64,000 nt of DNA from assembly GCF_029626235.1 (NCBI RefSeq), contig NZ_JARUBO010000005.1, forward strand, positions 4,994,001 through 5,058,000, read 5' to 3'. Position 1 is the stretch's first letter. The number at the start of each line of letters is the position of its first letter. The DNA is from Micromonospora sp. WMMD1120 (GTDB lineage Bacteria > Actinomycetota > Actinomycetes > Mycobacteriales > Micromonosporaceae). The translations under genes were made by a program, and so were the position numbers. The notes beneath the pieces were generated by a model. It made no database searches. It was given only the letters and a program-made list of their open reading frames with translations, and was not told the DNA's origin. Below, piece after piece: positions 8,314-62,344 of the stretch.

Positions 8314-9540
8314 GTGATCGAGTTGAGCACTGGTCGACGGGTGGCGGCATTGGTCGCCCTGGCACTGGGCGGCGTCGCTGTCGGCCTGACCGAGTTCGTG
8401 GCGATGGGCCTGTTGCCCGAGATCGCCCGCGATCTGCTCGCGCCGGAGTACGCCCGGTCGTCCTCGGACGCGGTCGCCAGCGCGGGTTGGATGATCACCG
8501 CGTACGCGCTCGGTGTGGTCGTGGGCGCACCCCTGATCGCCGCGCTGAGCGCGCGGATGCCCCGCAAGAAGCTGGTGCTGGGGCTGCTCGTGCTCTTCGC
8601 CGTCGGCACCGTCGCGTCCGCTGTCGCCTCCACCTTCGAGCTGGTGCTGGTGGCGCGGTTCGCCGCCGCGCTGCCGCACGGCGCGTACTTCGGCGCGGCC
8701 GGGCTGCTCGCCGCCACCCTGTGGGGCCCCGGCAACGAGGCGCGGGGCTTCGCCACAGTGCTCAGCGGCCTGACGGTGAGCAACGTGGTCGGCGTACCCC
8801 TCATCACCCGGCTCGGGCAGGCGGCCGGTTGGCGGGTCGCGTACCTGGTCATCGCCGGCGTCTTCCTGCTCACCCTGCTGGCGGTGCTGGCGGTCGTCCC
8901 GGAGGTCGCGGCGGCGGTCGACGGGTCGCCGGCCGCCGAGTTGCGGGCGCTGCGGACCTCCCAGGTCTGGCTGGTCGCCGCGACCGGGGCGATCGGCTTC
9001 GCCGGGTTCTTCGCTGTGGACAGCTACATCGCGCCGGTGACCACCGACGTCGCCGGCCTCTCCGCGGCCACGGTGCCGTGGGTCCTGGTCGCGGTGGGTC
9101 TCGGCATGACCGTCGGCAACGCGCTGGGCGGCTGGTTCGCGGACCGCGACCTGCACCGCAGCATGGTCATCGGTTTCCTGGCGATGATCATGAGCATCGC
9201 CGCCTTCGGCCTGGTGGCGTCGACCGGCGTCGGCCTGTTCGTGGGCGCGTTCCTGGTCGGTGCGACGAGCCTCTACCTCGGCCCGGTCCTGCAGGCGCGC
9301 CTGATCACCGTCGCGCCGGGGGCGCAACTCATGGGCGCGGCGCTCAACCAGTCGGCCATGAACATCGCGAACAGCCTGGGCGCCGCCCTGGGCAGCGTGG
9401 TCATCGCGGCCGGGCTGGGCTACCTCGCGCCGGCCTGGGTCGGCCTGGTCCTGGCGGTCGTCGGGCTGGCAGTGGGGCTGGTCAGCTTCGCCACCGCACG
9501 GCGTGCGCCCGAGCGGGTCCCGGCCACCGTCGCGACCTGA
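8314..9540 (+). CDS. MFS transporter, DHA1-like
   Basis: 408 residues from GTG, about twelve hydrophobic segments in two halves with a short central loop near residue 200. MGLLPEIARDLL and the GWMITAYALGVVVGAP stretch in the second helix are typical of the sugar-efflux/drug-resistance branch (AraJ/YdhP-like). It probably exports a small molecule by proton antiport; the substrate is unknown. The start lies 41 bp from the broken ROK gene on the other strand, so its expression may now be constitutive (inference). Confidence 0.85.
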   Translation: MIELSTGRRVAALVALALGGVAVGLTEFVAMGLLPEIARDLLAPEYARSSSDAVASAGWMITAYALGVVVGAPLIAALSARMPRKKLVLGLLVLFAVGTVASAVASTFELVLVARFAAALPHGAYFGAAGLLAATLWGPGNEARGFATVLSGLTVSNVVGVPLITRLGQAAGWRVAYLVIAGVFLLTLLAVLAVVPEVAAAVDGSPAAELRALRTSQVWLVAATGAIGFAGFFAVDSYIAPVTTDVAGLSAATVPWVLVAVGLGMTVGNALGGWFADRDLHRSMVIGFLAMIMSIAAFGLVASTGVGLFVGAFLVGATSLYLGPVLQARLITVAPGAQLMGAALNQSAMNIANSLGAALGSVVIAAGLGYLAPAWVGLVLAVVGLAVGLVSFATARRAPERVPATVAT

Positions 9541-54006: not shown

Positions 54007-54304
54007 AACCGGGCGGTCAACCCGGCTCCGCACCCGAGCGCATCATTGTTCGTCGATGCGTGGTGATTCGCCCCGGGTTTCCGGGGGCGCGTCGTCGGCG
54101 GGCGAGCGGCTCCGGTTCCGCCGTCCTCGGCCGAATCGTCATACCAAAAGGCCCGTTCCGCCGCCCCGCCTGCGGCCTCCGCGCAGCCTGTGACCGCTAA
54201 CATGGTCGATCTGCCAGCGCACGTCGACGGTCCGGACTGACCGGCCTCTCGACCGATGGTGCAGCGGGGTGTGGGGTGGACGGGAACGTGACGGGGCGGG
54301 TCCG
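54007..54304. other. Intergenic region upstream of the cbt riboswitch and the lactonase gene
   Basis: 298 bp that should hold the promoters for the cbt leader (minus) and the amidohydrolase (plus). I see no gene or clear dyad. The only AT-richer stretch is 54138-54152. Confidence 0.35.
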
Positions 54305-55183
54305 GTGACGACCGGTGTGGGCGCGCGGCCGTCCGGCATCGTCGACGCGCACCACCACCTCTGGGTCCGGGCCCGGCAATCCCGGCCGTGGATCGATCCC
54401 CACACCATGGCCGCGCTCGACGACGACTTCACGATGGTCGAGTTGGCACCGGCCGCCCGGGCGGTGGGCGTCACCCGGACCGTCGTCGTGCAGTCCGTCG
54501 CCGTACGCTCGGAGACACCCGAGCTGCTGGGTGTCGCTGCCGACGATCCCCTCGTCGCCGGCGTCGTCGGGTGGGTCGACCTCACCGCACGCGACGTCGC
54601 CGAGCGGCTGGGCCGGCTCCGCGAGGCCCGGGGCGGGGAACGGCTCGTCGGAATCCGGCACCTCGTCCAGTCCGAACCCGACCCGGCGTATCTCGACCGT
54701 CCCGACGTGCGGCGGGGCATCGCCGCTGTCGGCGCCGCCGGCCTCGCCTTCGACCTGCTGGTGCGCCACCACCAACTGCCGGCCGCCATTCGGCTGGTCC
54801 GTGACCTGCCGCACGTGCGCTTCGTCCTGGATCATCTCGGCAAGCCACCGCTCGGGCCGGCCGGTCCCGGGGGCTGGACCCGGGACCTGCTGGCGTTCGC
54901 CGCCGAGCCCAACACGACGGCCAAGCTCTCCGGCCTGGTGACCGAGGTCAGCGGCGCGCCCTGGACGCCGGCTGCCCTACGACCCGCCGTCGAGCACGCG
55001 CTGGACGCGTTCGGTCCGCGGCGACTGATGTTCGGCTCGGACTGGCCGGTCTGTCTGCTCGCCACCTCGTACTCCCGCTGGGTGACGGTCCTCGGTGAGC
55101 TGCTGGCCCCGCTGAGTGAGCCGGAGCGTACGGCGGTCTGGCGGCACACGGCGGAGCGGGTGTACCAGCTGTCGCCGTGGTGA
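54305..55183 (+). CDS. Amidohydrolase-family sugar lactonase (probable L-fuconolactonase)
   Basis: 292 residues from GTG 54305; a start at 54269 would add 12 residues before the beta-1 strand. A COG3618-type TIM barrel: metal ligands in DAHHHLWV, IRHLVQSEPD, FVLDHLGKPP and the late GSDWPVC Asp motif. This family hydrolyses sugar lactones such as L-fucono-1,5-lactone or L-rhamnono-lactone. With L-fuconate dehydratase and an aldo/keto reductase nearby, the L-fucose lactone is the best guess. It is separated from the transporter genes by 511 bp and may have its own promoter. Confidence 0.82.
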   Translation: MTTGVGARPSGIVDAHHHLWVRARQSRPWIDPHTMAALDDDFTMVELAPAARAVGVTRTVVVQSVAVRSETPELLGVAADDPLVAGVVGWVDLTARDVAERLGRLREARGGERLVGIRHLVQSEPDPAYLDRPDVRRGIAAVGAAGLAFDLLVRHHQLPAAIRLVRDLPHVRFVLDHLGKPPLGPAGPGGWTRDLLAFAAEPNTTAKLSGLVTEVSGAPWTPAALRPAVEHALDAFGPRRLMFGSDWPVCLLATSYSRWVTVLGELLAPLSEPERTAVWRHTAERVYQLSPW

Positions 55184-55694
55184 CGGGGTGTGCACGCGCG
55201 GGCGCGCCGCGTGCCGGGTGAATCAGGCCGGCCGGTCGCCGATCCGACTGCTGAACGGCGCGGACGCCCGGTCACCGGACCGCCCCGGCGGCTGCCGACG
55301 GTCGTGACCGTGCCCACGGAGCCCGTCGAGGGAATAGCATGTTATCGATAACATGCGCGATCCGGTGTGGATGGTGGCCGGTCCGGCGTCCACTGTGCGG
55401 CCGGGCGTCGGCCGGCTCGACGGTGCCCGGCCGCAGTTGTGCTGATTTGGTCAGACGTATGCGTTCGATGGCTCGGGTAACGATGACAAAACATGGTCGC
55501 AAAGCCTTGGCAACAGGCGTTGGTGCGTGGCATCGTAACGCCTGATCAAGGGAAACATCCGATCTATCTCCGTGGTGGTGTGGGCTCGCGTCCGCGTTTG
55601 CGTCACTGGGAGGCTCGGTCGCTCACAGGTGCTCGGCTTGCCGGCGGGGTCCCGTCGGACGCCGGTCCCACGCTTGGGGAGGTCAGGTCCGACG
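55184..55694. other. Long leader region of the sugar ABC transporter
   Basis: 511 bp with a perfect 20-bp palindrome at 55337-55356 and a relatively AT-rich stretch near 55480-55560. No open frame in it has a ribosome site and recognisable product. The distance from the palindrome to the first gene (about 340 bp) implies a long 5' leader or a second promoter nearer 55650. Confidence 0.4.
55337..55356. promoter_or_regulatory. 20-bp palindromic operator upstream of the sugar operon
   Basis: GCATGTTATCGATAACATGC is perfectly self-complementary with central CG. It resembles LacI-family sugar operators; the FadR-type regulator at 60220 is the only local candidate, but its family usually prefers shorter sites, so the cognate regulator may lie elsewhere. 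Confidence 0.7.
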
Positions 55695-56702
55695 ATGAGT
55701 ACCGTCGAGGCATCCGCCGGCACGCAGCGCGGCGACGTCAGTGACTGGTTGCGGGAACGGATCTCCCACGCGGTCTCCGAATTCACCGCCGCCACCGCGC
55801 TCGTCGTCCTGTTCATCGCGTTGAGCTTCGCGAGTCCCTACTTCCTCACCACCGACAACCTGTTCAACATCGGGGCACAGACGGCGGTCATCGCCATCAT
55901 CGCCACCGCGCAGACCATGGTGATCATCACCAAGGGCATCGACCTGTCGGTCGGCTCGGTGGCCGCGCTGGCCGGGGTGCTGGGCGCGATGACCGTGCGT
56001 GACCTGGGCTTCTCGCTCTGGGCGGCGACGGCGGTCGCGATCGGCGTCGGCGCCCTGGCCGGACTGTTGAACGGCGTACTGGTGACCGCGGCGAAGATCC
56101 CACCCTTCATCGCGACGCTGGGAACGATGTCGGTGGGCCGTGGTCTGGTCTTCATCATCACCGGCGCGGTCGGTGTCTACGGCCTGCCCCGTTCGTTCCA
56201 ACTGCTCGGCAACGGAGAGATCGCCGGCATCCCGTTCGCCGTCGTGATCACGGTGCTGGTCGCGGTCGGAGTCGCCTTCCTGCTGTCCCAGACCCGCTTC
56301 GGTCAGTACACCTACGCGATGGGCTCCAACCTGGAGGCCGCCCGCCGCTCCGGCATCCGGGTGGGTCGCCACCTGACCGGGGTGTACGTGCTGGCCGGTG
56401 TGCTGGTCGGTCTCGGCGGCATGATCGCCGCCTCCCGGGTCAACTCCGGGCAACCGAACTACGGCATCTCGCTGGAGCTCGACGTCATCGCCGCCGCCGT
56501 GATCGGCGGCGCCAGCCTCTTCGGGGGTCAGGGCCGGATCGTCGGGACGATCATCGGGGCCTTCCTCATCGCCCTGGTGCGCAACGGCGCTGTCCTGCTC
56601 GACATCAGCATCCACTACCAGCAGGTGATCGTCGGCGTGATCATCTGGGCCGCCGTCTACTTCGACCAGTACCGCCGCCGGCGGCTGGAATCACGGGGCT
56701 GA
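55695..56702 (+). CDS. Sugar ABC transporter permease, RbsC-like
   Basis: 335 residues with about nine helices. FLTTDNLFNIGAQTAVIAIIATAQTMVIITKGIDLSVGS is the classical RbsC N-terminal region, and GQGRIVGTIIGAFLIALVRNG the C-terminal one; the EAA-like loop is AMGSNLEAARRSGI. It pairs with itself as a dimer in type II carbohydrate importers. It is the first gene of an operon continuing with the binding protein 40 bp downstream. The context suggests L-fucose or a related deoxysugar. Confidence 0.9.
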   Translation: MSTVEASAGTQRGDVSDWLRERISHAVSEFTAATALVVLFIALSFASPYFLTTDNLFNIGAQTAVIAIIATAQTMVIITKGIDLSVGSVAALAGVLGAMTVRDLGFSLWAATAVAIGVGALAGLLNGVLVTAAKIPPFIATLGTMSVGRGLVFIITGAVGVYGLPRSFQLLGNGEIAGIPFAVVITVLVAVGVAFLLSQTRFGQYTYAMGSNLEAARRSGIRVGRHLTGVYVLAGVLVGLGGMIAASRVNSGQPNYGISLELDVIAAAVIGGASLFGGQGRIVGTIIGAFLIALVRNGAVLLDISIHYQQVIVGVIIWAAVYFDQYRRRRLESRG

Positions 56703-56742: not shown

Positions 56743-57795
56743 ATGGCACACACCACCACCGGCCGGCGGGCCCGCACGCCGCTCCTGCGCGCGCAGGCCA
56801 TCCTGGCCGCGGCCGCGGCCACCGCGCTGCTCAGCGCCTGCGGCGGAGTCGAGGTCCGCGACGGCGGCGACGGCGCGACGAAGGAGGCGAGCGGCCCGTT
56901 GAAGCTCGCCGTCGTGCCGAAGGCGGTCGGGGCCGACTACTGGAACACGGTGAAGGCGGGCGCCGAGTGCGCCGCGCAGCGCGCCGGCGACGTGACCGTC
57001 CAGTGGGACGGGGTGACCACCGAGACCGACGTCGAGGGTCAGGTCAACCTGATCCAGAACTTCGTCACCAAGAAGGTCGACGGCATCGTCTACGCGGCGA
57101 CCGACTCCAGCGCCCTGGCGCCGGCCACCGACCAGGCGCTCGCCGCCAACATCCCGGTCGCGATGATCGACTCCGGCACCAGCCCGCAGCCGTCGGCGGT
57201 GCCGCTCTTCGCCACCGACAACCGCGCCTCGGCCACCGAGGCGGCGAAGCTGCTCGCCAAGGAGCTGGGCCCGGGCAACCACGACGTGGCCCTTGTCGAG
57301 TTCCAGCCCGGCTCGCAGACCAACACCGAGCGGGTCGAGGGCTTCAAGGCCGGTCTCGCGCAGTTGCCCAACCTGAAGCTGGTCGGCCAGCAGCCCAGCC
57401 GCAGCGACGTCAACGAGGCGCGGCGCGTCACCGAGAACATCCTCACCGCCAACCCCAACCTCAAGGGCATCTTCGCGGCCAACGAGCCGAGCGTGCTCGG
57501 CGCCGCGCAGGCCATCCAGGCGGCGGGCAAGTCGGGCAAGGTCGTCATCATCGGCTGGGACGCCGCCCCGGACGAGGTCGCCGGGCTGCGCAACGGCCAG
57601 ATCTCGGCACTGGTCGTGCAGAACCCCTTCAAGATGGGCTACTTCGGCGTCGACAAGATGGTCAAGCACCTGCGGGACAAGGCCCCGCTGGCCTCGGCCG
57701 ACACCGGCGTCACGTTCGTCACCAAGGAGAACATCGACTCGGCGGAGATCAAGGCGGTGCTCGAGCCCAGCTGCGCCAACCCTCCGGTGCAGTGA
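56743..57795 (+). CDS. Sugar ABC substrate-binding lipoprotein, RbsB-like
   Basis: 350 residues with signal peptide and lipobox LLSAC (Cys28). A type I periplasmic-binding fold follows: LKLAVVPKAVGADYWNTVKAGAECAA, VDGIVYAATDSSALAPA, and IIGWDAAPDEVAGLRNGQISALVVQNP, the ribose-type C-terminal hinge. It collects the sugar for the adjacent permease. Its TGA overlaps the ATG of the ATPase (57793-57797). Confidence 0.92.
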   Translation: MAHTTTGRRARTPLLRAQAILAAAAATALLSACGGVEVRDGGDGATKEASGPLKLAVVPKAVGADYWNTVKAGAECAAQRAGDVTVQWDGVTTETDVEGQVNLIQNFVTKKVDGIVYAATDSSALAPATDQALAANIPVAMIDSGTSPQPSAVPLFATDNRASATEAAKLLAKELGPGNHDVALVEFQPGSQTNTERVEGFKAGLAQLPNLKLVGQQPSRSDVNEARRVTENILTANPNLKGIFAANEPSVLGAAQAIQAAGKSGKVVIIGWDAAPDEVAGLRNGQISALVVQNPFKMGYFGVDKMVKHLRDKAPLASADTGVTFVTKENIDSAEIKAVLEPSCANPPVQ

Positions 57796-58613
57796 TGGCA
57801 ACGACTCCCACGGCCAGCCCCGACGTCGACGCGTCGCCGTCCGCCGAGGAGCCACCGGTCCTGGAGGCCCGCGGCATCGTCAAGCGGTTCGGGCACGTCG
57901 AGGCGTTGCGCGGCGCCGACTTCACCGTCCGCCGGGGTGAGGTCGTCGCGCTGATCGGTGACAACGGCGCCGGCAAGAGCACCCTGATCAAGACGCTCTC
58001 CGGGGTGCACCCGCCGGACGAGGGCGAGATCCGGGTGGGTGGCCGTCCGGTGCAGTTCTCGACGCCGGTCGACGCGCGGCGGGCGGGGGTGGAGACCGTC
58101 TACCAGGATCTCGCCGTCGCCGACGACCTCAGCGTGGCCGCCAACCTCTACCTCGGGCGGGAGATCCTGCGCTCCGGGCCGCTCGGTCGACTGGGGCTGC
58201 TGGACAAGCGGGCCATGCGGCAGGGCGCCGCCGCCGCCCTCGACGAGCTGGGCGTACGGATCCCCCGGGTCACCACCCCGATCGCGATGCTCTCCGGTGG
58301 GCAACGCCAGTGCGTCGCGGTGGCCCGCGCCATCATCTGGGCGACGAACGTGGTCATCCTCGACGAGCCCACCGCCGCGCTCGGCGTCGTGCAGACCGGC
58401 CGGGTGCTCGACGTCGTCAGGCGTGCCCGCGACGCCGGCATGTCGGTGGTGTTGGTGAGCCACAACATGCCACAGGTGCTCGACATCGCCGACCGGGTCG
58501 AGGTGCTGCGCCTCGGCCGGCGGGCGGCCCAACTCCGCGCGGCGGACGTCACCACCGACGACCTGGTCGCGGCGATGACCGGGAGCGCCGGCACGGATCG
58601 GGAGGAGCGGTGA
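57795..58613 (+). CDS. Sugar ABC transporter ATPase, single-domain
   Basis: 272 residues, with Walker A GDNGAGKST, signature LSGGQRQCVAVARAI, Walker B VVILDEPTAALG and His switch SHNM. RbsA proteins have two fused ATPase domains; this is a single-domain FrcA-type ATPase that must work as a homodimer. The start overlaps the binding-protein stop, and its own TGA overlaps the GTG of the truncated dehydrogenase (58610-58613). Confidence 0.9.
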   Translation: MATTPTASPDVDASPSAEEPPVLEARGIVKRFGHVEALRGADFTVRRGEVVALIGDNGAGKSTLIKTLSGVHPPDEGEIRVGGRPVQFSTPVDARRAGVETVYQDLAVADDLSVAANLYLGREILRSGPLGRLGLLDKRAMRQGAAAALDELGVRIPRVTTPIAMLSGGQRQCVAVARAIIWATNVVILDEPTAALGVVQTGRVLDVVRRARDAGMSVVLVSHNMPQVLDIADRVEVLRLGRRAAQLRAADVTTDDLVAAMTGSAGTDREER

Positions 58614-59167
58614 CGGCGGTCGTCTACCGGGGCGCGCGTGATCTCGCCGTCGTGCCCCGCGACCCCGAGCCGCCCGGCCCCGGAGAGGTCCGCGTCGCGG
58701 TGGCGTACACCGGGATCTGCGGCACCGACCTGCACATCTTCCACGGCGACATGGACGCCCGGGTGGGCGGGTCGGCGGTCCTCGGCCACGAGATGTCGGG
58801 CCGGATCGCGGCCGCCGGCGCGGGGGTGAGCGGCTGGACGATCGGCCAACCGGTCACCGTCATGCCGACCCGCCGGTGCGGGCGGTGTGCGGCGTGCCGG
58901 GGTGGCAACTCGCACATCTGCCACGCCATGGACTTCCTCGGCATCGACTCACCCGGCGCGATGCAGTCGTCCTGGACCGTACCGGCGGATCTGGTCCTCG
59001 CGCTCCCGGACGACCTGCCGCTGGACCGGGCCGCGCTCGTCGAGCCGGTCGCGGTCGCCGTGCACGACGTACGGCGTGGGCGGGTGACGGCCGGCGAGCA
59101 GGTCGTGGTGGTGGGCGGCGGCGGTGTGATGAAGGTGCTGCTGGACTGGCGGGAAGGCGCCGAATGA
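58610..59167 (+). pseudogene. Zinc-dependent MDR dehydrogenase with Rossmann domain deleted in frame
   Basis: 185 codons remain of a medium-chain dehydrogenase normally near 340. The GroES-like catalytic domain is intact: TGICGTDLHIFHGDMDARVGG, LGHEMSG (zinc ligands), and structural zinc Cys in RRCGRCAACRGGNSHIC, through LVEPVAVAVHDVR. Immediately after GEQVVVVGGG, the first strand of the cofactor domain, the frame passes directly to VMKVLLDWREGAE, which looks like the normal C-terminus of such enzymes. About 150 codons are missing without loss of frame. It has no NAD(P) site and should be inactive. Coupling to both neighbours (GTGA, ATGA) is preserved. Confidence 0.8.
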
Positions 59168-59211
59168 GGCAGTTCGACCTGGCCGTCGACGGCGGCTGGT
59201 TCGGCCGGTGA
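59164..59211 (+). pseudogene. 15-codon scar of a deleted SDR dehydrogenase
   Basis: The ATG overlaps the preceding stop and the reading is MRQFDLAVDGGWFGR, then TGA. The first six residues resemble the start of KduD/FabG-type SDRs (xxFDLxGK) and the last nine their usual C-terminus (VDGGWxxR). It therefore looks like an SDR gene from which about 235 codons have been lost in frame. The stop overlaps the GTG of the aldo/keto reductase. In L-fucose operons an SDR of this type oxidises 2-keto-3-deoxy-L-fuconate. Confidence 0.6.
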
Positions 59212-60209
59212 CCGGCCGTCCCGGTCGTCGTCAGGCCACGCTGGACGCCGCCGGGCCGGGCCTGCGGCTCGGTCCGCTGGGCTTCGGCGCCTCCCAGGGC
59301 GGCAACCTCTTCCGGGCGACCTCGGACGAGGAGTTCGCCGCCGCCGTGGACACCGCGTGGGCCGGCGGCGTCCGCTACTTCGACACCGCGCCGCACTACG
59401 GTCTGGGCCTGTCCGAACGGCGTCTCGGCGCCGCCCTGCGATCCCGCCCCCGGGACGAGTACGTGGTGTCGACGAAGGTGGGCAGGCTGCTCGTACCGTC
59501 TCCGGAGACGGCGCACCTGCGTGATCCGGAGGGCTTCGACGTCGCCGCCGACCACCGGCGGGTCTGGGATTTCAGCCGGGACGGCGTTCGCCGGTCGTTG
59601 GAGGCGAGCCTGCGACGCACCGGCCTGGACCGGATCGACGTGGTGTACCTGCACGACCCGGACGCGCACTGGGAGCAGGCGGTGCGTGAGGCGGTGCCGG
59701 CGTTGGCGCAGTTGCGTGAGCAGGGCGTGGTCGGCGCGATCGGGGCGGGCATGAACCAGTCGGCGATGCTGGCCCGCTTCGTGGCGGAGACCGACGTGGA
59801 CGTGGTGATGTGCGCCGGTCGCTACACGCTGCTGGAGCAGGGGGCGTTGACCGACCTGCTGCCGATCGCGCAGGCCCGACGCGTCGGTGTGGTGATCGCC
59901 GGGGTCTACAACTCCGGGCTGCTGGCCCGGGACGTTCCGCCGACCGACGCCACCTACGACTACCGGCGGGCGCCGGCGGAGGTGCTCGACCAGGCTCGGC
60001 GGATCGCCCGGGTCTGCCAGACCTACGGCGTCACGCTGCCCCAGGCGGCGTTGGCCTTCGTCAGGCGTCACCCGGCGGTGGCCTCGACCGTGGTCGGCAT
60101 GCGGAACGAGGCCCAGGTGACCGAGACCCTGCGCCGGGCCGCCGTCGACGTCCCGGATCAGCTCTGGGCGGCGCTGTACGACGCGGGGTTGCTCGACGTG
60201 CACTGCTGA
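59208..60209 (+). CDS. Aldo/keto reductase, probable L-fucose dehydrogenase
   Basis: 333 residues from GTG overlapping the SDR scar. AKR motifs: RYFDTAPHYGLGLSERRLG (catalytic Asp and Tyr), VVSTKVGRLL (Lys), LEASLRRTGLDRIDVVYLHDPD (His) and VVGMRN near the cofactor site. This subgroup includes bacterial D-threo-aldose 1-dehydrogenases, which oxidise L-fucose to its lactone with NAD(P). The cluster context (lactonase, L-fuconate dehydratase) supports that role. It is the last gene of the plus-strand operon, convergent with the GntR gene 10 bp away. Confidence 0.87.
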   Translation: MTGRPGRRQATLDAAGPGLRLGPLGFGASQGGNLFRATSDEEFAAAVDTAWAGGVRYFDTAPHYGLGLSERRLGAALRSRPRDEYVVSTKVGRLLVPSPETAHLRDPEGFDVAADHRRVWDFSRDGVRRSLEASLRRTGLDRIDVVYLHDPDAHWEQAVREAVPALAQLREQGVVGAIGAGMNQSAMLARFVAETDVDVVMCAGRYTLLEQGALTDLLPIAQARRVGVVIAGVYNSGLLARDVPPTDATYDYRRAPAEVLDQARRIARVCQTYGVTLPQAALAFVRRHPAVASTVVGMRNEAQVTETLRRAAVDVPDQLWAALYDAGLLDVHC

Positions 60210-60219
60210 GCGTCGACTG

Positions 60220-60942
60220 TCACAACCGGGTCGCGTCGATGCCCGCGTCAGCGTCGTCGGGCAGCCCGTGCAACGACTCCTCCACGCCGATCAGGTGGTT
60301 GGCCATCCGGGTGCGGGCCCGCTCCGGGTCACGCGCCACGAGGGCCTTGAGGATCGCCACGTGCTCGTCATGGGTGCGCCGGTCGGCGCCCTCCTCGTGC
60401 AGGCTCCGCCAGAGCCGCCCGCGGATGGTGCGCCCGGCGAAGGCCTCGATCAGGCCGACGAGCACCGGGTTGTCGGCGTGGCTGGCGATGATCCGGTGGA
60501 ACGCGATGTCGATCTCCATGATCCGCTCGTGGTCCGGCGGTGACTGGCCGACCAGCCGGGCCGCCTCGTCGAGCAGGTCCGCCGCCTGGGCGAGCGCCTC
60601 GTCGGTGATCCTGGTCGCCGCCAGCCGGGCGGCCTCGCACTCCAGCAGCCGTCGTACGGTGTGGATGTGCCGCGGGTCGCCCTGCCCCTGGAAGTCGACA
60701 ACGAAGCCCATCGGGGCCAGCAGTTGCGGCGCGTCGAGGTTGGTGACGTACGTGCCGTCGCCCTGGCGGATGTTGACGATGCCGAGGATCGACAGGGCCG
60801 ACATGCCCTCGCGCAGCGAGCCCCGCGAGACGCCGAGCGACTCGGCGAGGTCCTTCTCGATCGGCAGCCGGTCACCGGGCCGGAACTTGCCCTCGAGGAT
60901 CATCCGCTTGATGCCGTTGACCACTTCGTCGGTGCGAGACAT
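60220..60942 (-). CDS. FadR-subfamily GntR regulator
   Basis: 240 residues from the ATG preceded by GGGGAG. The GntR winged helix spans residues 1-70 (GIKRMILEGKFRPGDRLPIEKDLAESL, SRGSLREGMSAL) and an FCD domain with metal/ligand-binding Asp and His (IDIAFHRIIASHADN; then HDEHVAIL) occupies the rest. It lies 7 bp downstream of the L-fuconate dehydratase gene in one operon and probably responds to a sugar acid of the pathway. Its operator is not identified with certainty. Confidence 0.9.
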   Translation of the reverse strand: MSRTDEVVNGIKRMILEGKFRPGDRLPIEKDLAESLGVSRGSLREGMSALSILGIVNIRQGDGTYVTNLDAPQLLAPMGFVVDFQGQGDPRHIHTVRRLLECEAARLAATRITDEALAQAADLLDEAARLVGQSPPDHERIMEIDIAFHRIIASHADNPVLVGLIEAFAGRTIRGRLWRSLHEEGADRRTHDEHVAILKALVARDPERARTRMANHLIGVEESLHGLPDDADAGIDATRL

Positions 60943-60949
60943 GACTCCC

Positions 60950-62344
60950 CTAGCGGCCTGCGGATGTGGCCGTCCCACCCGCGATCACGAACGGCTCCGG
61001 AGATGACACGGTAGCCGGCTCTGTCGCCGCCCAGTAGTGGCCGTCGGGGAAGCGGTAGAGCGCGATCGACTCCGGGCGCATCCGGGTGGAGTAGCCCGGC
61101 TCGCGGGGGAGTACGTAACCGCTGCCCGAGCCGGCGTCCTTGATGACGCACGGGTCGGTGAAGTGCTCGTGCAGGTGGTCGACGAACTCGGTGACCCGGT
61201 TGGTCAGATCGCCCGATATCGCGACGTAGTCGAGCACCGACACGTGTTGCACCATCTCGCAGAGCCCGACGCCCCCGGCGTGCGGGCAGACGGGCACGTC
61301 GAACTTCGCGGCGAGGAGCAGCACGGCGACGATCTCGTTGATGCTGGCCAGGCGGCCGGTGTCGAGCTGGCAGAAGTCGATGGCCCCGGCCTGGAAGAGC
61401 TGCTTGAACATCACCCGGTTGTGGCAGTGCTCGCCGGTGGCGACGCCGATCGGAGCGACCGCGCGCCGGACGGCCGCGTGTCCCAGGATGTCGTCGGGGC
61501 TGGTCGGCTCCTCGATCCACAGCGGCGTGAACGGGGCCAGGGCGGTGACCCACTCGATGGCCTGGCCGACATCCCACACCTGGTTGGCGTCGATCATCAG
61601 GTTGCGCTCCGGGCCCAGGATCTCCCGCGCGATGGCGCACCGGCGGATGTCGTCCTCCAGGTTGGCGCCCACCTTGAGCTTGACGTAGCCGTAGCCGGAG
61701 TCGACCGCCTCCTGGCAGAGTCGGCGAAGCTTGTCGTCGCCGTAGCCGAGCCAGCCGGCCGAGGTGGTGTAGGCGGGGTAGCCGGTCCGCTCCAGCTCGG
61801 CGACCCGGTCGGCCTTCGTGCTCTCCTTGGCCCGAAGGATGGCCAGCGCCTCGTCGCGGGTCAGGGCGTCGGACAGGTAGCGCAGGTCCGCGATGTCGAC
61901 CAGGTGCTCGGGGGACATGTCGACGAGCAGTCGCCACAGTGGTTTGTCGGCGAGCCGGGCGACCAGGTCCCACGAGGCGTTCAGCACGGCGGCGAGGGAC
62001 AGGTGGACGACACCCTTCTCGGGTCCGAGCCAGCGGAGCTGCGAGTCGGACGTGAGGAGACGGTAGACCGCGCCCATGTCGGCCGCCATGGTCGCCACGT
62101 CCATGCCCACCAGGGTCTGCGCCTGGTGCGCCGCCGCCGCGGCGACGATGTCGTTGCCGCGGCCGATGGTGAAGGTCAGGCCGTGGCCGGCGAGCGGCAC
62201 GCCGGCGCTGTCCACGCCGTCGGTGTGCAGGACGACGTAGGCCGCCGAGTAGTCGCCGTCCTTGTTCATGGCATCGGACCCGTCGGCCGTCAGGGAGGTG
62301 GGGAAGCGGACGTCCTCGATGGTGACGGCAGTGATCTGCGGCAT
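60950..62344 (-). CDS. fucD: L-fuconate dehydratase (enolase superfamily)
   Basis: 464 residues. The mandelate-racemase-like barrel carries Lys222/Lys224 in YVKLKVG, metal ligands Asp252 (DANQVWD), Glu278 (WIEEP) and Glu305 (GEHCHN), Asp328 (QLDTG) and His355 (CPHAGG). From memory these sit at a constant offset of four from the described residues of Xanthomonas FucD (K218, K220, D248, E274, E301, D324, H351), which is strong support. The enzyme converts L-fuconate to 2-keto-3-deoxy-L-fuconate in the cytoplasm. GAGGAG precedes the ATG. First gene of the fucD-gntR operon. Confidence 0.93.

Follow-up and report, generated by a model that had tools for sequence, protein, structure and literature searches.

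Frame-true reduction of two adjacent dehydrogenase genes belongs to a decay series of an L-fucose operon across the genus Micromonospora

Introduction

How do two neighbouring dehydrogenase genes of one operon come to be shortened internally, each in its own place, with every reading frame and every start-stop overlap preserved? The question is raised by a locus in the window analysed here, a 64,000-nucleotide stretch of DNA from the genus Micromonospora (G000:C5:4994001-5058000; L-numbers denote loci and G-numbers genomes in the comparison set). The non-phosphorylating L-fucose pathway proceeds through L-fucose dehydrogenase, fuconolactonase, L-fuconate dehydratase, L-KDF 4-dehydrogenase, and a hydrolase. 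The original prediction held that an MDR and an SDR gene of a fucose operon had been reduced by two separate in-frame deletions, and that the local pathway would stop at 2-keto-3-deoxy-L-fuconate. Comparison with the orthologous loci of the genus places the window reduction as one step in a genus-wide series of frame-true decay, which is the larger finding.

The L-fucose operon of the window

The plus strand of the operon carries genes for a lactonase-like amidohydrolase, an ABC permease, a sugar-binding protein, an ATPase, the MDR remnant, the SDR remnant, and an aldo/keto reductase (AKR); a GntR regulator and L-fuconate dehydratase lie on the minus strand. The amidohydrolase (54269..55183, PF04909) resembles L-fuconolactonases: it scores 224.5 bits against the NCBIfam model FuconLaconase, whose cutoff is 400, and its structure match is 4dlf, 'Amidohydrolase 2' (E 6.9e-44). 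The transporter consists of a sugar permease (55572..56702, PF02653), the real start of which possibly lies further downstream, the sugar-binding protein (56743..57795, PF13407) that served as the query for the operon in relatives, and a single-domain ATPase (57795..58613, PF00005). The ATPase has 272 residues and one ATPase domain; in remoter relatives of the transporter (e.g. Thermogemmatispora, L110-L112), the ATPase is matched twice in tandem, as in double-domain sugar importers. The AKR (59208..60209, plus strand, PF00248), a probable L-fucose dehydrogenase, finds its closest solved structures among L-galactose dehydrogenases. On the minus strand, a GntR/FCD regulator (60220..60978, PF00392 and PF07729) is accompanied by L-fuconate dehydratase (60950..62344), which matches the L-fuconate dehydratase structures 2hxt/1yey with an E-value of 2.5e-174, a gene expected of an L-fucose operon. 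Judged by similarity, the identity of the dehydratase is secure, and those of the lactonase and the AKR are probable.

Three junctions in the window are 4-nt start/stop overlaps. The GTG that starts the MDR overlaps the TGA stop of the ATPase (58611-58613), the ATG of the SDR remnant overlaps the MDR stop, and the AKR start codon GTG at 59208 overlaps the stop TGA of the SDR remnant (59209-59211). All start-stop overlaps are thus intact and the reading of the downstream AKR is unaffected, as had been foreseen.

Two separate in-frame deletions

The truncated zinc MDR dehydrogenase (58610..59167, plus strand) comprises 185 codons. By comparison with the intact orthologue of M. parastrephiae (L076), 471 bp are gone from its interior, corresponding to 157 codons, and the frame is kept. 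In M. tarensis (L052), which has the closest full MDR, the 10 bases GGGCGGCGGC stand at both break regions in identical codon phase; a single copy is left in the window, at the deletion junction (59113-59122, plus strand), and the two copies in L076 differ at one base. The missing stretch seems to have been lost between two short direct repeats. Because both repeats are in-phase Gly codons, the window MDR deletion would be in frame without any help from selection, and this mechanical cause makes its frame weak evidence for selection. Microhomology was considered as the cause of every deletion in the series; it is clear for the window MDR and weak elsewhere.

The window MDR protein matches PF08240 completely (1-104/104) and no other Pfam family. 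With 157 codons missing, it lacks the complete cofactor-binding domain of a functional MDR, in agreement with the original prediction. The further claim that the catalytic domain is kept whole was wrong: what is kept is the N-terminal GroES-like part, and the C-terminal part, which completes the catalytic domain in the MDR fold, is lost apart from the last dozen codons.

The remnant of the KduD-like SDR (59164..59211, plus strand) is a 15-codon ORF, MRQFDLAVDGGWFGR, that stands as a relay between MDR and AKR. Aligned with L076, from which both sides of the junction were taken, it consists of about 6-7 first and 8-9 last codons of the SDR, close to the six and nine first proposed, joined at a 4-base CCTG microhomology (59178..59181). 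The SDR remnant of L052, MSGLFDLTGRTAMVTGARLAEQVSAAGPVDILRLGR, arose by two internal in-frame deletions; it retains parts that are lost in the window and vice versa, which shows that the SDR was reduced separately in each. Comparison with L076 and L052 bears out the prediction that MDR and SDR were reduced by separate in-frame deletions. A single event behind both is ruled out, since the end of the MDR and the start of the SDR are retained and L052 combines a full MDR with an SDR shrunken in a different way.

A decay series across the genus

Operon orthologues, defined as sugar-binding protein matches at E <= 1e-60, occur in 31 of 160 genus genomes including that of the window, and all 30 others were compared. 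Across these 31 loci, the transporter-linked L-fucose operon forms a decay series. Among the 30 relatives, MDR, SDR, and AKR are all whole only in L076; L052 has a full MDR and an SDR shrunken in frame, and the other loci hold MDR and SDR fragments or nothing. The AKR is whole in 18 loci and lost or broken in 13. In all 18 AKR-whole loci, the reading frame that begins with the MDR either reaches the AKR start via 4-nt overlaps (8 loci) or continues in frame into the AKR (10 loci). A single short ORF spans the distance between the MDR and AKR starts in L051, L053, and L067 (15 codons each), L069 (47 codons), and L078 (13 codons). In L057, L058, L060-L063, L065, L071, L072, and L080, an in-frame fusion joins the AKR to the start of the MDR. 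A partial or split lactonase gene match upstream of the permease was observed in L051 and L080, both with a whole AKR.

A conserved micro-protein or new domain protein was rejected as a reading of the window's remnant. The finding that would have spoken against reduction by deletion, conservation of the same short proteins in relatives, was sought in the 30 orthologous loci: none has the window's remnant, the remnants differ, and close relatives share their own by descent.

A tree of five operon genes (5194 columns) joins the window with L052 (support 100) and this pair with L051, L053, and L067 (100). The fusion clade stands apart (100) and includes the AKR-less loci L059, L066, and L074. Another clade (100) holds L069, L076, and L078; L076 is the only intact locus there and adjoins L078. 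At least eight distinct frame-true deletions can be told apart, namely those of the window MDR, the window SDR, the L052 SDR (two), the L051 clade, L069, L078, and the fusion clade, and their separateness relies on this one operon tree, in which some nodes are weak (48-75). A 24-nt difference between L057 and L065 is a ninth frame-true change. All nine deletions before a living AKR are frame-true; at one chance in three for each, this has a probability of 3^-9 = 5e-5, a figure to be read in the light of the pattern having been noticed before the test was framed.

Controls within the operon

The AKR-dead loci offer a contrast. The AKR fragments found in them are in frame in one case of three, that of L066, and out of frame in L059 and L074; Fisher's test of nine of nine against one of three gives about 0.045 with a contrast group of just these three cases. 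In L066 (G160), the AKR shows an internal in-frame deletion of ~243 codons that leaves a 97-codon ORF with both ends. Since the AKR died in these three descendants of the frame-true fusion clade, it is dispensable. Each of the 18 AKR-bearing loci retains the MDR start codon. Among the 13 AKR-less loci, five (L054, L055, L064, L068, and L073, three of which are one clade) have something other than ATG, GTG, or TTG in its place, and the other eight still have the start codon.

With 30 loci of a second operon described below, a start codon with a 4-nt or 1-nt stop overlap can be assigned to the AKR in 48 of 48 cases (18 + 30); the check accepts whichever in-frame start in the expected neighbourhood has such an overlap and so speaks for the configuration, not the frame. 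In L053, L057, and L071 it settles on a start other than that of the relay, and in L189, L194, and L201 both overlap lengths, 1 and 4 nt, occur at the AKR start.

Selection and ribosome entry

Branch changes since the split of the window from L052, polarised with L076, number 12 synonymous and 6 nonsynonymous in the N-terminal domain of the window MDR (L052 branch: 11.5 and 2.5). For the AKR, the corresponding counts are 33 and 10 on the window branch and 24 and 11 on that of L052. The mostly synonymous changes imply that the window MDR was constrained for most of the time since the split, which points to a recent deletion or to a fragment that is still of use. Constraint is also seen on the AKR, with window pairwise dN/dS of 0.15-0.25, and the lactonase is looser (0.21-0.31).

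Ribosome entry was approached through estimated pairing with an assumed sequence of the 16S tail. The MDR start gives -10.3 in the window, L069, L076, and L078 and -7.0 in L052. The AKR start gives -5.0 in the window and L076 and -2.7 in L052; random positions have a median of -3.0, with 5% at -7.3. Strong pairing at the MDR start and weak pairing at the AKR start, together with the overlaps, suggest that ribosomes come to the AKR by re-initiation. The fusion and L051 clades have weak pairing at the MDR start too (-3.9 to -4.6), and entry there probably relies on the ATPase ahead as well.

A second operon and redundancy

The window genome carries a paralogous operon 1 Mb away (C5:4.013-4.017 Mb, L013) in which an enolase-family protein, MDR, SDR, lactonase, and AKR are all whole. 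A search for a further KduD-type SDR, which the original prediction had proposed as a check, found a KduD-like one in this intact copy, at 333.7 bits where the cutoff is 338.85, and the companion search for FAH-type hydrolases returned FAH-family loci at four places, one barely above the cut-off. The predicted halt at 2-keto-3-deoxy-L-fuconate holds for the window operon, in which the SDR for the step after the dehydratase is present as the 15-codon remnant only, but probably does not extend to the whole genome in view of the intact MDR-SDR-lactonase-AKR set. A block of the whole-cell pathway is countered by the candidate enzymes of the second operon and the FAH-family loci.

This second operon was surveyed through AKR matches at E <= 1e-140, found in 52 of 160 genus genomes, and the best 30 places, each taken to be a second-operon locus, were inspected upstream of the AKR. 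A lactonase gene precedes the AKR in 26 of these 30 and is absent there in four. In G099, a 26-codon lactonase remnant overlaps both the SDR stop and the AKR start; in G062, the SDR is joined to the AKR directly by a 4-nt overlap; in G115, a fused SDR/lactonase remnant ends at the TGATG of the AKR start, and its GTG, as read by eye, overlaps the stop of an MDR remnant. These three genomes form one clade. A 14-codon ORF ends at the AKR start in G120. The decaying second operon of relatives thus appears to hold relays similar to those of the window operon.

Relatives of the lost genes are widespread outside the window-type operon in the 31 genomes. For the MDR, they were found in 29 (E <= 1e-80) and not in G115 and G066. 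For the SDR (E <= 1e-50), they were found in 30, with the G066 copy only 60% identical, and not in G115. Of the 13 AKR-dead genomes, 12 have an AKR relative with an identity of at least 77%; that of G066 is at 52%. Back-up in trans for all operons without MDR and SDR was therefore rejected, as it fails for G115 and G066: these have no MDR elsewhere at this threshold (G115 also no SDR), and redundancy is not the whole story. Transporter and L-fuconate dehydratase are kept in G115 (L054) and G066 (L055) despite the missing MDR (in G115 also the SDR) at the thresholds used.

In G118, G096, G097, and G153 (L163-L166), an intact MDR-SDR-lactonase-AKR set lies ~22-31 kb from the reduced operon. The MDR and SDR of these sets group with the window-type operon copies, yet they adjoin the enolase type of the other operon, and the two operons have perhaps exchanged genes.

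Related loci in other genera

Jiangella rhizosphaerae (L097) has a 6-codon ORF in the place of the MDR of J. endophytica (L098), and this ORF stops one base before an ATG in the SDR frame; the tree places its SDR only weakly, on a long branch, which makes the case weaker. In another genus of the window's family (G192, L159), the same operon is seen at about 8590-9540 as a relic with frame breaks. There the MDR match falls into two pieces (12-54 and 271-307), the SDR match covers 1-82 only, the GntR regulator is present as two short pieces in different frames, and no AKR match above 60 bits was found within the 15 kb examined.

Explanations for the frame-true deletions

We consider it likely, judging from the sequence comparisons, that redundancy permits the loss of MDR and SDR and that termination-reinitiation coupling of the AKR favours frame-true deletions. 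The second operon encodes close relatives that would make the MDR and SDR of the window operon redundant, and the two are being deleted. The AKR is still under purifying selection; its start lies within the stop of the preceding ORF and its ribosome-binding site is weak, so that most likely ribosomes finishing that ORF re-initiate and translate the AKR. Frame-breaking deletions between the MDR and AKR starts would silence the AKR and be removed, and frame-true ones would survive. The dead genes would end as relay ORFs, as in the window, L051, L052, L053, L067, L069, and L078, or, in ten species, the AKR would capture the MDR start codon by in-frame fusion. The deletions with their frames and separate positions on the tree, the overlaps, and the intact second operon are observed; from them we infer that coupling through the remnants feeds the AKR and that selection for this coupling set the frame.

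The best-surviving alternative is that a redundant operon decayed neutrally and that luck, repeats, and survivorship kept the frames, without selection for coupling. The in-phase Gly repeats at the window MDR deletion would suit it, as would the redundancy given by the second operon, the loss or breakage of the AKR itself in 13 of 31 loci, and the frame-broken relic L159. Against this, all nine deletions before a living AKR are frame-true with different breakpoints, and like relays recur at the second locus and, less surely, in Jiangella. On balance, we regard neutral decay as unlikely.

That the truncated MDR works as a small protein and persists through a function of the zinc-binding GroES-like domain itself is very improbable. 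Its retained N-terminal domain is open and synonymous changes prevail on the window branch (12 versus 6), but with a full MDR in the sister species L052 the constraint can predate a recent deletion. The same truncated protein is found in none of the 30 other loci, the other reduced MDRs keep at most about 36 codons or none, and the protein is without the cofactor domain. An assembly collapse or sequencing artefact in the window genome would be favoured by the position of a junction within a GC-rich repeat, yet it is scarcely credible given a contig of 7.1 Mb, two consecutive frame-true junctions, and the comparable reductions in separately assembled relatives, whose different deletions in the same genes make a collapse unlikely.

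Discussion

The reading that we prefer, redundancy with coupling of the AKR, resembles systems of termination-reinitiation coupling at ATGA, GTGA, or TGATG overlaps (PMC6728339; PMC10666635; reviewed in PMC12548453) in that the AKR starts overlap the upstream stop by 4 or 1 nt, the arrangement for which coupling has been measured. For ATGA and TGATG overlaps, coupling is described as strict in 13 of 14 tested pairs from H. volcanii and E. coli (PMC6728339), and scanning across longer gaps is described as rare, if it occurs at all (PMC10666635). The published work, as far as these sources go, used gene pairs and reporter mutants in model species, whereas here the upstream partners are dead genes in a natural deletion series from which one can read what is retained. 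In engineered E. coli knock-outs, a gene deletion can lower the protein of the directly downstream gene, in correlation with intergenic distance; deletions of the window type, in contrast, are natural and appear to be filtered to avoid downstream loss.

With the non-phosphorylating L-fucose pathway, which includes a dehydrogenase step (PMC11199699), the operon shares L-fuconate dehydratase, a plausible lactonase and AKR, and, in the intact copy, a KduD-like SDR. It is unlike that pathway in that the putative L-KDF step of the SDR, and an MDR, are broken in the window operon.

Gene loss and translational coupling are already known, and the footprint of relay remnants is, as far as our literature search shows, the new part. 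A text search found the terms gene loss, pseudogene, and remnant absent from the main text of the review (PMC12548453). Frame-true relay remnants were likewise undescribed in titles and abstract openings among the matches listed, which is weak evidence given that some lists covered the best matches only and that few subscription journals were included.

The broader statement, that in tightly overlapped operons gene loss is frame-filtered and dead genes persist as relay mini-ORFs or start-codon donors, seems to us evenly poised. Were it true, relay mini-ORFs would have 6 to about 50 codons, often with both ends of the lost gene or genes, and would serve ribosome passage only; they would record selection for coupling and allow it to be mapped by comparing genomes. 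A deletion series in one operon of one genus is a natural experiment on whether coupling is selected. If our reading is correct, it would explain some of the tiny ORFs between operon genes, predict which deletions are tolerable, and offer a way to test for coupling that needs genomes only.
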